From NCBI RefSeq assembly GCF_028421645.1, contig NZ_CP116887.1, positions 1,304,001 through 1,368,000 of the forward strand: 64,000 nucleotides of DNA, given 5' to 3'. A program made the translations under genes and the position numbers. Source of the stretch: Aneurinibacillus sp. Ricciae_BoGa-3. GTDB taxonomy: Bacteria; Bacillota; Bacilli; Aneurinibacillales; Aneurinibacillaceae. Numbering within the stretch: the first letter of the stretch is position 1; every line of letters starts with the position of its first letter. The notes below the pieces were generated by a model. That model did not search any database. It was not told the origin of the DNA and was given only the letters and a program-made list of their open reading frames with translations. Below are positions 15,033 to 54,604 of the stretch, piece by piece.

Positions 15033-15080
15033 TGCTTCAGTTAGCAACAACGGAAAAATTCCACACGAATAAATGACATA

Positions 15081-15200
15081 CTTATCCAGAGTCGGCGGAG
15101 GGATAGGCCCGATGATGCCCGGCAACCTGCTATTTTTTATTTAAAAAATAGTAAGGTGCTAACTCCTACAGGACGTGAAGTGAACGTTCTGAAAGATAAG
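15081..15200 (+). promoter_or_regulatory. SAM-I (S-box) riboswitch controlling mtnWXBD
   Basis: P1 CTTATC (15081-15086) with GATAAG (15195-15200); 'GGAGGGATAGGCCCGATGA', 'CCCGGCAACCTGC', an A/T-only P3 hairpin (CTATTTTTTA...AAAAAATAG), then 'AAGGTGCTAACTCC'. All S-box landmarks are in order. It is head-to-head with the mtnK riboswitch, and the two share their 3' halves and terminators. Confidence 0.96.
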
Positions 15201-15220
15201 GATATACACAAGACGTGATA

Positions 15221-15258
15221 TGCCCTCTTTCAGAATGAACTGAAAAGAGGGCTTTTTG
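15221..15258 (+). terminator. Riboswitch-controlled terminator before mtnWXBD
   Basis: GCCCTCTTTTCAG-type hairpin (GCCCTCTT ... AAGAGGGC) followed by TTTTTGAT. CTTTCAG in its 5' part can pair with CTGAAAG (15190-15196) to form the antiterminator. Confidence 0.85.
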
Positions 15259-15267
15259 ATCGTATAA

Positions 15268-15543
15268 GAAAGTATAATTCGCTTTAACGTGTTGAAGTGC
15301 CTTGAGCGATTTTTTAAATGGGACCTCCGGTCCCGAAACACCTCAGGAAAACATCGTGAGGCGCATGTCCGCACCTTTCTTTCCCCTGTGGAGCGTGTGG
15401 AACAGAGGGCGAAAAAGACCGGCAACAGTCTCCATCATTGAGATACCCAGATGTTTTGCCGGTCCGCCCGTTGGTTCACAAAGCGGCCGTAAAAACTTCT
15501 ATGCGGGGAAAGGAGAGAGCGGCATGGCCCGCGATGTTTTTCT
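15268..15543. repeat. Dispersed MITE-like hairpin element, copy 1
   Basis: Core 15345-15543 (199 bp). Left end AGGAAAACATCGTGAGG...CTTTCTTTCCCC and right end GGGGAAAGGAGAGAGC...CGATGTTTTTCT are imperfect inverted repeats of about 40 bp. A nested pair lies inside: GAACAGAGGGCG...GACCGGCAA against TTGCCGGTCCGCCC...GGTTC. Upstream, 15268-15343 is also shared with copy 2 and carries a GGGACctccgGTCCC hairpin. Compared with copy 3 it lacks about 70 bp in the middle (after GATGTT). It lies between the riboswitch terminator and mtnW, so it is transcribed in the mtnWXBD leader. Confidence 0.85.
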
Positions 15544-15558
15544 CAGTATACAGCAAGG

Positions 15559-22433: not shown

Positions 22434-23612
22434 ATGCCAGTAAAAGTAACACCTTCATCATTGATGGATCGGCTGCCGGTCCAGTTTTTCTCTACGCTTG
22501 TCGGAAAGGTGCAGCAGAGTGTCGCACAGGGACACGATGTCATTAACCTTGGACAGGGAAATCCTGACCAGCCGACCCCGCCCCACATTGTAGAGCGGCT
22601 TCGGGAAGAAGCGCTTAAGCCTGAACACCATCGCTATTCGCCATTTTCCGGGCGGATTGAACTTAAGCAGGCCATCGCTCACTGGTACAAACAAGAGTAT
22701 AATGTTGACCTTGATCCAGAGACAGAAGTCGCGATTCTTTTTGGAGCCAAGACAGGTTTAGTTGAAATCAGCCCTTGCCTGTTAAACCCGGGCGATATCG
22801 CACTTGTCCCGGATCCCGGATATCCTGACTACTGGTCAGGCATGGCTATTTCAGGCGGGGAAATGGTTACGATGCCGCTTTTGGCGGAGCACGATTTCCT
22901 GCCTGACTATGATGCCATTCCAACTACCACGTTTGATAAAGCGAAGCTCATGTTTCTAAACTACCCGAATAATCCCACCGGTGCCGTTGCCAATCACGCC
23001 TTTTTTAAGCAGACAATCGCGGTGGCTGAACGGCATAATATCGTCGTTGCCCATGATTTTGCTTATGGCGCAATTGGGTTTGACGGCCATAAGCCGATTA
23101 GCTTCCTAGAGCTTCCGGGCGCCAAGGAGGTTGGCGTCGAGTTCTGCACGCTGTCCAAAACATACAACATGGCAGGCTGGCGGGTTGGTTTTGCGGCGGG
23201 GAATAAGGATGTAATCCGCCTGCTAAATGAAATCCAGGACCACTACTATGTGTCGTTGTACGGCGGCATCCAGATGGCCGCGGTAACGGCCCTTACGTCT
23301 TCACAGGATTGCGTGCGCGAGCTTGCCCAGCTTTATGAACGCAGGCGCAATAGACTGTACGACGGCCTCGCCTCCATCGGTTGGGAAGCACAGCGTTCCC
23401 AGGGGTCATTCTTCTGCTGGCTGCCCATTCCCAAAGGATTCGATTCCGTCTCCTTTTCCGATTATCTGCTGGATAAAGCGCATGTCGTCATGGCTGCCGG
23501 GCGGGGATTTGGCGTACACGGCGAAGGTTATGTAAGAGTTGGGCTTCTGGTAGACGAACCGCGGATCGATGAGATGATCGATCGCCTTCGGGGTCTGCCG
23601 TTATCCTTCTAA
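22434..23612 (+). CDS. mtnE: PLP-dependent aminotransferase of methionine salvage
   Basis: 392 residues, fold-type I aminotransferase. It aminates 2-keto-4-methylthiobutyrate to methionine, the last salvage step. 'DVINLGQGNPDQPTP' near residue 35, 'PDPGYPDYWSG', 'NYPNNPTGAVA' near 181 and 'TLSKTYNMAGWRVGFA' (PLP lysine about 241) closely follow B. subtilis MtnE (YkrV). Starts 8 bp after the permease. Its presence in the same unit supports assigning the transporter to this pathway. Confidence 0.95.
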   Translation: MPVKVTPSSLMDRLPVQFFSTLVGKVQQSVAQGHDVINLGQGNPDQPTPPHIVERLREEALKPEHHRYSPFSGRIELKQAIAHWYKQEYNVDLDPETEVAILFGAKTGLVEISPCLLNPGDIALVPDPGYPDYWSGMAISGGEMVTMPLLAEHDFLPDYDAIPTTTFDKAKLMFLNYPNNPTGAVANHAFFKQTIAVAERHNIVVAHDFAYGAIGFDGHKPISFLELPGAKEVGVEFCTLSKTYNMAGWRVGFAAGNKDVIRLLNEIQDHYYVSLYGGIQMAAVTALTSSQDCVRELAQLYERRRNRLYDGLASIGWEAQRSQGSFFCWLPIPKGFDSVSFSDYLLDKAHVVMAAGRGFGVHGEGYVRVGLLVDEPRIDEMIDRLRGLPLSF

Positions 23613-23673: not shown

Positions 23674-23726
23674 GCTGAAATGAGTAAGGCGGCCTTGCAG
23701 GCCGCCATGAAAGTTTCAGTTTTTTT
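23674..23726 (+). terminator. Terminator after mtnE
   Basis: Nested hairpin: CTGAAA ... TTTCAG outside and GGCGGCC/GGCCGCC inside, followed by TTTTTTT. Confidence 0.85.
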
Positions 23727-23737
23727 GTCGTGACCAG

Positions 23738-24112
23738 AAAGTATATTTCGCGCTTTAGTATGAATGTGATTTTCTGCTGGGACCGATAGGTCCCTTTCGC
23801 TTTGTTATATGTAAAGTTGATGTGCTTCACAGTGTTGAAGTGCCTTGAGCGATTTTTTAAAAGGGACCTCCGGTTCCGAAACACCCAAGAAAAACATCGT
23901 GAGGCGCATGTCCGTACCTTTCTTTCCCCCAGTCCGAAAGGTGTTTAGATTTTACCTCTCGGCATGAGTGCGACTTAGGTTCGCTGCCTGCGCTACAGCT
24001 TGGCCGCAACCTAGTTTTCTAATGGAGCGTGTGGAACAGAGGGCGAAAAAGACCGGCAATTGTCTCCATCACCCCGATACCTAGATGTTGCACCTAAATG
24101 GTATAAAGGAAT
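23738..24112. repeat. Dispersed MITE-like hairpin element, copy 2 (3'-truncated, with inserts)
   Basis: Shares AGAAAGTATA...TTCGC and GTGTTGAAGTGCCTTGAGCG with copy 1, but with about 70 extra bases between them. The core begins at 23888 (AAGAAAAACATCGTGAGG). After CTTTCTTTCCCC it carries about 90 bp not found in the other copies, including a hairpin with arms TTAGGTTCGC/GCAACCTAG and loop CTGCCTGCGCTACAGCTTGG. It then resumes at ATGGAGCGTGTGGAACAGAG (24022) and stops after TATAAAGGAATCTA. The whole right half is missing, and the mcp stop codon lies at the junction. Confidence 0.82.
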
Positions 24113-25858
24113 CTATAGTTTAAATTTATTAATGGATGCATCTAACTGTTGCGCCATGGCGGATAAGGCGATTGCCGATGAGGATATCTCCTCCATGGAA
24201 GCCAATTGTTCTTCTGTTGAGGCTGATACAGTTTGCACCCCATCCACACTTTGCTCCGTTGCCTTCGTGACGATATCAATGGAATGGACAATTTGTTCCG
24301 TACTCGCAGTCATTTGTTGTACGGATGCGGATACCTCAGAAATTTGCACGGCAACATCTTCAACCGCAGCCTGAATTTTTTCAAATGACTCGCCTGTTAA
24401 ATAGACATCGTGCATGCCGGTAGCTACTTCATGTGTTCCGGTTTCCATGGAGGCCATGGATTTTTGGATTTCTGATTGTATCGATTTTGTGTATTCTCCA
24501 ATTTGCTTAGCTGATACAGAAGATTGTTCGGCAAGTTTTCGCACTTCATCAGCCACTACAGCAAAACCCCGTCCATGCTCGCCCGCCCTGGCTGCCTCAA
24601 TCGCTGCGTTTAAAGCTAATAAATTGGTCTGGTTAGAGATACCCGTAATGACCTCAACGATATTATCAATTGTTTTGGCATGCTCACCTAACGTGCGAAT
24701 GGCCTGTGCTGAGTCGTTCACTGTGGTCCGGATTGACTCCATTTGCTGTACAACCTTCTGGATTAATAGATGACCTTCTTTTGCTGTATCAGATGCCTGA
24801 ACGGCCGAAGTTGAAACGGCCTCGGATTTTGCAGATATGTGCTGGGCACCCGCCGCTAATTCTTTAATGGTTACATTCGTTTGATTAATGCCGGCAGCTT
24901 GATTTTCAGTTCCAGCCGCTAATTCCTGCATCGTATAAGCTACTTGTTCTGTCGCTTTGCTGGATTGCTCTGCGCTAGCTGACAATTGCTCCGATGAAGA
25001 GGATAGAAGAATAGCGGAATCATTTACCTCTGTTACAATGGATCGCAAAGAATCAATCATCCGGTTAAAGCTCATACTTAGGCGGCCAATCTCATCTTTG
25101 CTTTTTAACTCAAGATGTTCGATCGTCAAATCACCATTGGCAACGCTCTCCGCTTGTACGCTTATTTGCTTAATAGGCTGTGTAATCTTGCGGGCAATCC
25201 ACCATATAATGAAAGCTCCAATAAGAAGGGAAATTCCAAGTGCAATCATCAGAAAATATAATACAAGGTTAGCCCCGCTATTAAAGTCTTGCAGATAGGA
25301 ACCTGCCACAACAACCCACCCCCAATGGGGATCTACTTCTGAATACGTAATTTTTGAGGCTGAGCTATTGGGGTTATTTGGCAAGGGCCAATCATATATC
25401 GTGTATCCTCCACCTTGCTGGGCGGCTTTGATAACGTTTTGCATCACATATGTACCGTCTTTTGCTGTCACGTTCCAAAGATTCTTTCCCTCAGAAGTAG
25501 GGCTTGCCAGTGATTGTCCATGCTGGTCAAGTACATAAAAGAACCCGTTTTTCCCGAGGTCATATCTGGCATTAACCGGACGCAGCCCATTGGCCTGCTT
25601 CTTTCCCAGAATTTCCTGTTTAATCTTTTCCTGGGCGTCCTGCATGGTCAACTGCCCATTTGCAACCTGTTCCTGCAATGAATCAATCATTGCTATAACC
25701 AGGCGAGTATCATTTTTAAGCTGTGTTTCTCCTGCGGCAGTGAGCTGCTGTTTGGAGATTTGAAAACTGACCGAGCCGATTATAATACTAGGGATAGCTA
25801 AGATTAGTAAACTAATGATAATTAACTTTGTTTGTAATGATTTAGAAAATAATGACAT
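24113..25858 (-). CDS. Methyl-accepting chemotaxis protein
   Basis: 581 residues. Membrane helix about 10-32, an extracytoplasmic single-Cache-like sensor domain about 33-195 ('[21 protein letters not shown]', shown in part; '[11 protein letters not shown]'), second helix about 198-220, HAMP about 220-275, then a long coiled-coil signalling domain with the conserved hairpin tip '[19 protein letters not shown]' near residue 440. It senses a small extracellular ligand and controls CheA; the ligand is unknown. The TAG stop and the final LAC of the coding strand coincide with the edge of repeat copy 2. RBS AAAGGAATG. Confidence 0.96.
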
Positions 25859-54331: not shown

Positions 54332-54604
54332 AAGAAAAACATTGTGAGGCCCATGTCCGCACCTTTCTTTCCCCCTATGGAGCGTGTGGAACAGAGGGCG
54401 AAAAAGACCGGCAACCTGTCCCCATCATTGAGATACCCAGATGTTGCACCTAAACGGTATAAAGGAATCTAGGGCCATTGCCTGCGCTTACGCTTGCCAC
54501 TGACCAAGATTCCCTAATGCCGGTCCGTCCGACGTTCCACAAAGCGGCCGAAAAAACTTCTATGAGGGGAAAGGAGAGAGCGGCATGGCCCACGATGTTT
54601 TTCT
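54332..54604. repeat. Dispersed MITE-like hairpin element, copy 3 (most complete)
   Basis: 273 bp. Ends AAGAAAAACATTGTGAGG...CTTTCTTTCCCC and GGGGAAAGGAGAGAGC...CGATGTTTTTCT form the terminal inverted repeat. Inner arms TGGAACAGAGGGCG...GACCGGCA and TGCCGGTCCGTCCGACGTTCCA pair next. The centre holds a further hairpin, GGAATCT...AGATTCC (54464-54513), with loop GCCTGCGCTTACGCTTGCC, related to the loop in the copy 2 insert. The right end abuts the tetR promoter (TTGACA at 54610). Confidence 0.87.

Follow-up and report, generated by a model that had tools for sequence, protein, structure and literature searches.

The genome of Aneurinibacillus sp. Ricciae_BoGa-3 (G000; 5.70 Mb in two contigs, C1 and C2) harbors a family of small elements that are very probably mobile, non-autonomous, dependent on their fold and targeted to intrinsic terminators. 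The family is multi-copy and mobile; its members are inserted precisely where a terminator T-tract ends, are co-directional with the upstream gene and share a covarying core. Three copies lie in the window, by which we mean the whole 64,000-nucleotide stretch analysed (C1:1304001-1368000), and a sequence-only reading had taken them for a three-copy element. A three-copy local repeat is rejected because many further copies exist in the genome: the right-end pattern matches at least 106 places, and the core pattern, at three mismatches or fewer, 82. The three copies themselves are related and lie where that reading had put them. R1, a covariance model built on the 103-nt core, matches 15387-15489 (E 1.5e-30), 24021-24114 (3.4e-8) and 54376-54550 (4.3e-19), all on the plus strand. 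The element had not been recognised as a known family; no Rfam family matches it in a covariance search (gathering threshold or E<=5), and no description of it was found in the open-access literature or Rfam. An Rfam match or a lack of further copies had been named as refuting the earlier reading; neither was observed. The copies and their neighbourhood comprise the following features:

15079-15202: SAM riboswitch of mtnW, 5' of the copy-1 terminator (Rfam match)
15221..15259, plus strand: intrinsic terminator directly 5' of copy 1, GCCCTCTTTCAG..CTGAAAAGAGGGC followed by TTTTTGA (sequence, terminator-like hairpin score)
15260..15545, plus strand: copy 1, whole element without the optional inserts (module alignment, sequence, R1 120 bits)
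15260 to about 15286, plus strand: 5' module S of copy 1 (module alignment)
About 15288-15343, plus strand: module B of copy 1, a GGGACC/GGTCCC hairpin (module alignment)
About 15344-15345 to 15545, plus strand: rod of copy 1, ends GATGTTTTTCTCA (fold z = -6.9, compensatory changes)
15387..15489, plus strand: conserved core of copy 1 (R1 match; covariation across four Bacilli families)
23674..23726, plus strand: terminator of the aminotransferase gene 22434-23612, CTGAAA..GGCGGCCTTGCAGGCCGCC..TTTCAG followed by T7 (sequence, gene family)
23728 to about 24112, plus strand: copy 2, truncated (sequence, R1 match 24021-24114, and module table, where L037 is the same place)
54332..54604, plus strand: copy 3, rod only, without 5' modules (sequence, R1 78 bits)
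About 54446-54519, plus strand: insert I2, a 73-nt hairpin in the apical loop of copy 3, GCACCTAAACGGTATAAAGGAATCTA..GATTCCCTAATG (module table)

Read from 84 core-bearing copies, the full element consists of one or more 5' modules, a rod of about 200 nt and two optional hairpins within the rod, I1 (90 nt) and I2 (73 nt), and its ends are TCGTATAAGAAAG on the left and TTTTTCTCA on the right. Module S reads TCGTAT-AAGAAAGTATATTTCGCTTTAA on the plus strand, the optional module A contains a GGGACCGATAGGTCCC hairpin, module B contains a GGGACCTCCGGTCCC hairpin flanked by GTGTT and AACAC, and the rod is bounded by AAGAAAAACATCGTGAGGCG..CGCGATGTTTTTCTCA.

The shared blocks and nested pairing noticed earlier among the window copies are confirmed; their extents change in part. 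Copy 1 was located correctly, but it covers 15260-15545 (286 bp), of which 15260-15344 belong to 5' modules and only the part from about 15345 to the rod. The inverted repeats of about 40 bp described at its outer ends are in fact internal arms, and they form helices interrupted by bulges and internal loops. Its core reads GGAGCG..GGAAC.AGA.GGGCG-AAAAA-GACCGGCAAC, a loop (..GATACCCAGATGTT), then TTGCCGGTC-CGCCC..AAGCGGCCG. Copy 1 sits in the mtnW leader, between mtnW and the terminator of the SAM riboswitch, which is the target site of its insertion. Its rod is a hairpin followed by a T-tract, and this second terminator-like rod stops about 14 bp ahead of the mtnW ORF start; copy 1 may change the output of the SAM riboswitch. 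Copy 2, also rightly located, already starts at about 23728, directly 3' of the aminotransferase terminator, and holds in order S, A, B, the 5' arm of the rod, the 90-nt I1 (about 23931-24021), the core and a partial I2; it breaks off within I2, beside the convergent chemoreceptor gene 24113-25858 (minus strand), and lacks the right arm. Copy 3 keeps the extent proposed for it, as a rod only with a 73-nt hairpin in its apical loop. It matches itself at 100% and other places over its full length at 95%, and relatives align to it from 1 to 114 and then directly from 187 to 273; I2 is missing from copy 1 and from the copies of A. tyrosinisolvens and G009.

The copies are often internally deleted or truncated, and three (L149, L160, L162) have lost their centre by recombination between I1 and I2. 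Module S is a long separate hairpin in G001, G009 and G010, and in G010 it varies from copy to copy on both sides, AAACTAGATGTCGC..GCGACATCTAGTTT and AAACGATATGTCGC..GCGACATATCGTTT. Two block variants of the apical loop exist, CATCATTGAGATACC and CATCACCCCGATACC, which differ at several adjacent bases with intermediates mostly absent (window 24062-24085; L006, L009, L019, L020, L044, L053, L068, L100); this looks like block exchange, not point mutation. An I1-type hairpin, CAACTAAGG..GCCTGCGC..GCTTGGC..GCCAAGTTTTCTTT, is also found free-standing in other Aneurinibacillus-family genomes, beside terminators or within rods (L266, L269, L336, L176, L177, L182), and is probably a second small mobile hairpin family. 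In two genomes (G005, G007; L257, L260) two inverted cores lie about 150-200 bp apart, and in G001 a mini-hairpin of about 70 nt with the same apical motif is the terminator 5' of a full element (L268:849-894).

A search with R1 over 399 Bacilli genomes gave matches in 16, namely all 11 Aneurinibacillus-family genomes and five from three other families (G036, G054, G095, G096, G107). Several genomes other than G000 carry at least 10 copies. The sampled copies of A. terranovensis (G001, same genus group; A. tyrosinisolvens, G002, is of the same family) are nearly identical to one another, unlike those of G000, a species-specific burst. Within G000, all listed element places are on C1, the 4.98-Mb chromosome, and none of them is on the second contig, C2 (0.72 Mb); with the 106 copies distributed uniformly over the two contigs, C2 would be left without any with a probability of about 6e-7. 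C2 lacks elements yet carries reverse-transcriptase and Y1 transposase genes; it may have been acquired later or be contamination. No match was found in a plasmid collection for G000, G001, G036 or f23 elements, in a phage collection for G000 or f23 elements, or in IMG/VR for one element pattern, and a phage or plasmid origin is rejected on these results.

Full-length copies start about 1 nt 3' of the T-tract of an intrinsic terminator. In 64 of 110 copies a terminator-like hairpin with a T-tract is found no more than 60 nt from the left end, compared with 6/110 and 8/110 control flanks, under a strict scan in which several unscored copies resemble terminators by eye. Among 45 copies with an intact 5' end, T occupies positions -7 to -2 in 69-89%, and position -1 is mixed (A16 T13 G9 C7). 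The upstream gene is co-directional with the element in 78 of 89 copies, whereas the downstream gene shows no bias (50/87). Orientation also follows the chromosome half (69/82), a bias that results from co-direction with the upstream gene; replication-strand targeting as its cause is therefore rejected. Each insertion in turn ends in its own rod, then a T-tract.

Related elements of about 340 bp in G054 and G096 (L317-L332) have a right end, GACTTTGTCTACACGCTGA, that often lies directly 5' of a hairpin or terminator; by strict count it abuts the 5' foot of a hairpin in 6/16, versus 9/80 controls. The arrangement is suggestive of a mirror image of the Aneurinibacillus target, and these elements may be another type with the rod in common.

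Empty sites were sought by searching the flanks of the first six G010 loci (2641-nt query) in sister genomes. At L173 the corresponding locus of G006 (L239, ~92% identical) keeps the terminator but lacks the element: the empty site reads GGAAGGCTTTTTTATTTTTTGG, and G010 has GGAAGGCTTTTTTTA, the element ATGGATTAAG..GAGTTTTTCTTA, then TTTTTTAG. Read over a longer stretch, G006 has GGAAGGCTTTTTTATTTTTTGGAAAAC where G010 continues from GAGTTTTTCTTA into TTTTTTAGAAAAC. The insertion is precise, at T6A^T6, with no long target duplication between G010 and G006 (1-3 bases at most are ambiguous). At L175, G003 has CCCTGTTTT^AATGG, also read as CTCCTCCCCTGTTTT followed by AATGG, where G010 carries an element after the same terminator. 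The clean comparison thus comprises two sites, one at ~92% and one at ~82% identity; two further pairs (L169 vs L233, L171 vs L227) were rejected as deletion products. Since the sister species has the terminator without the element, the terminator is the older of the two, and the precise insertion into an empty site shows that the element is mobile, as do the lineage-specific bursts of near-identical copies.

Complementary rod ends, high copy number, intergenic position and the lack of an ORF would also suit an ordinary MITE, that is, a deleted insertion sequence with terminal inverted repeats moved by a DDE transposase. We regard this as most improbable. The full element, with its 5' modules, extends beyond the rod arms, species differ in the ends but share an invariant centre, the empty site shows no long target-site duplication, and there is no longer copy with a transposase; the sole long copy has an IS110 fragment in I1. 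A target-site duplication and a transposase with matching ends had been proposed as checks, and neither a long duplication nor such a transposase was found; no autonomous relative sharing the ends is present among the left and right ends listed for G000. On these three grounds (duplication, unconserved ends, transposase) the classical MITE is rejected. What the element shares with MITEs is its non-autonomy, its high copy number and the absence of an ORF; it differs in its conserved interior and divergent ends as well as in lacking the duplication and the transposase. The earlier either/or of a MITE or a structured RNA is supported in part: the evidence points to a mobile element that is no classical MITE and that needs a conserved fold in order to spread. 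The IS110-type transposase gene fragment lies within the I1 hairpin loop of L148 (1509-2447; G000:C1:2173008-2173946).

One strand had been read as folding into a rod, and this holds: the minimum free energy is -96.7 kcal/mol for copy 1 (shuffles -63.2, sd 4.9) and -114.4 for copy 3 (shuffles -76.4, sd 4.4). Across the full rod of 40 diverse copies, 160 cells are double-changed, compared with 55.7 (sd 5.9) after shuffling; all slid controls are lower, the structure having been taken from one of the 40 sequences, which makes the slid control generous. Compensatory change, an earlier proposed check, extends across four Bacilli families. In the distant R1 matches, 93.2% of cells are paired and 144 are double-changed versus 39.5 (sd 4.9) shuffled, and the core covariation score is 0.72 versus 0.17 shuffled and at most 0.10 slid; because this alignment follows the model, pairing is overestimated, whereas the exchange of one Watson-Crick type for another is not. 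Most core pairs switch among up to four such types, and few pairs among these distant sequences are G-U. The conserved unpaired features are UGUCUC, ACCCAGAUGUUU, AGCGG towards the 3' side and a bulge ahead of the apical stem. Conservation within the rod is highest in the apical loop, and the rod ends differ between species (AACATCG / AACTCG / GGGAGG) around an invariant centre. Single changes on the plus strand yield G-U more often than A-C (57 vs 28, p 0.002, with no correction for common ancestry or mutational bias), which hints that the plus strand may be the folded one.

No ORF explains the element, as had been observed. A coding sequence (frame ..QLSPSLRYPDVL..; in G036 ..KLTPSLKYPDVF..) is rejected for G000 because many copies are frameshifted and the stems covary. 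At one G036 locus (L253) an element copy supplies the in-frame 3' end of an ORF (..LAVKLTPSLKYPDVFDGSVL and stop).

Loop conservation had been attributed to recent spread or to selection on an RNA. In 76 G000 copies, private changes (found in at most two copies) affect 1.07% of invariant positions and 1.60% elsewhere (p 0.03), whereas changes shared by more copies affect 0.7% and 2.4%, respectively (p 1e-11). Since private mutations are nearly as common at invariant sites and shared changes are rarer there, selection acts on the spreading lineages and not strongly on each copy. After insertion the copies mostly drift, decaying in a nearly neutral way, and the spreading lineages retain the fold. 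The copies could instead be a functional non-coding RNA of the host, acting for instance in 3'-end formation or termination, which selection maintains at many loci and duplication has spread. Such a reading would be consistent with the deep conservation of fold and loop, with the terminator-like 3' rod and its TTTTTCT, and with co-direction with the upstream gene. It is nevertheless improbable, given the private mutations at invariant sites, the frequent internal deletion or truncation of copies, the locus that is filled in one sister species and empty in another, and the species-specific bursts.

To our knowledge, the rule of insertion at intrinsic terminators is otherwise known only from group IIC introns. 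Introns and element have in common the terminator hairpin, the T-tract, insertion about 7-8 nt after the stem and the same orientation; the element differs in having no ribozyme domains, GUGYG start or RT ORF. The resident group IIC introns of G000 sit after TTTTTTA, the element is inserted after an intrinsic terminator with an IBS-like TTTTTA^T, and at L208 a group IIC intron lies exactly between the terminator and the element start. According to PMC3898094, target recognition by group IIC introns involves short IBS sequences and a DNA hairpin, for which a terminator can serve, and the RTs of group II introns perform end-to-end template switching. The niche in common, together with template switching, makes RT-mediated spread attractive.

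The elements, a non-autonomous family of about 200-500 bp, are probably inserted at the terminator T-tract as a folded single-stranded copy. A trans-acting enzyme would recognise the apical domain of this copy, which would be RNA or possibly single-stranded DNA, and would join it at the group IIC-intron position, 7-9 nt after the terminator stem. In the version that we prefer, though only tentatively, an RNA copy is moved by a group II-intron-type reverse transcriptase in the manner of a SINE. Bolder, and doubtful, is the proposal that these are bacterial SINEs, small structured RNAs of several Bacilli families that a group IIC-type RT copies in trans to terminators. Such copying could possibly involve end-to-end template switching, with the element RNA as the first template and the 3' end of a terminated mRNA as the second, and the apical UGUCUC..ACCCAGAUGUUU domain would serve as the handle for the enzyme.

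Several results count against this preferred, RT-mediated version, and the analysis found no mobilising enzyme. A group II intron remnant is rejected because the element has no detectable sequence similarity to the resident IIC intron, and Rfam group II/domain V models, which do match the resident introns, have no match in the element (gathering threshold or E<=5). RVT_1 was not found in G005 and G007 (both single-contig), G095, G096 or G107, all carriers of the core; the copies in these genomes may be relics. The 5' truncation of copies is mixed with internal deletion and so leaves no clean signature of reverse transcription. The right ends in G054 and G096 that meet the 5' foot of a hairpin instead of following a T-tract also count against it, though they are only suggestive. 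As a separate observation, about eight composites of ~4.95 kb (L208-L215, e.g. G000:C1 1442700-1447642), 99.8-99.9% identical, carry an intron RT ORF split at one point by a three-recombinase insertion of ~3 kb. The tyrosine-recombinase proteins that this insertion encodes measure 637 and 348 aa in L208, and the insertion is similar to a recombinase-in-trio element.

Alternatively, a Y1 (HUH) transposase, either IS200/IS605-like or TnpA-REP-like, could move the element as single-stranded DNA. Its 5' hairpin would then be the left-end hairpin, the rod the right-end hairpin, the host T-tract/TTTA the left target, the right tip CTTA/CTCA the right cleavage site and TAAG at the foot of the 5' hairpin the guide. 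PMC6006769 describes TnpA of IS200/IS605 as binding subterminal hairpins, where the guide immediately precedes the foot on the 5' side, and as having the lagging-strand template as its target. Strand-specific insertion without a long target duplication, a hairpin close to each end and the orientation by chromosome half all fit such a mechanism, and Y1 genes are present in G001, with its recent burst, and in G002, G005-G010, G036 and G095. We still consider it unlikely. Such elements need a conserved flanking tetranucleotide, and the base before the left end is unfixed; the upstream gene already explains the orientation bias; and the mechanism does not call for a conserved apical loop at such a distance from the ends. 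Moreover, G003, G054, G096 and G107 have no Y1 match (G096 and G107 having neither RVT_1 nor Y1), the one Y1 match of G000 is on the element-free C2, and no element-matching ends were seen at the Y1 genes inspected.

The family is undescribed and abundant, but its kind, small non-autonomous mobile repeats, is already known. REPs are 21-65 nt long and have a GTAG-type guide (PMC6006769). Like the element, REP/REPIN sequences with TnpA-REP (RAYT), grouped here with the end hairpins of IS200/IS605, are small hairpin elements with many intergenic copies and a candidate for single-strand mobilisation; the element is longer (~200-500 nt), has no linked TnpA-REP gene that we could find and no fixed flanking tetranucleotide. 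The modular BOX, the terminator-like SPRITE and RUP of pneumococci are also multi-copy, intergenic, RNA-foldable and non-autonomous as described in PMC3049150; there, terminal repeats and target duplications characterise BOX and RUP, and SPRITE consists of a duplex of 18 bp and a U-rich tract. As far as that description extends, they have neither insertion at the T-tract of a pre-existing terminator nor cross-family covariation of a core, and the element has both.

Where the element inserts, genes acquire a second terminator-like rod downstream, and in copy 1 such a rod comes to lie within a riboswitch leader. The covarying apical domain provides a handle with which to fish out the mobilising protein, and whether SINE-like parasites of retroelements exist in bacteria can be tested directly with this family.
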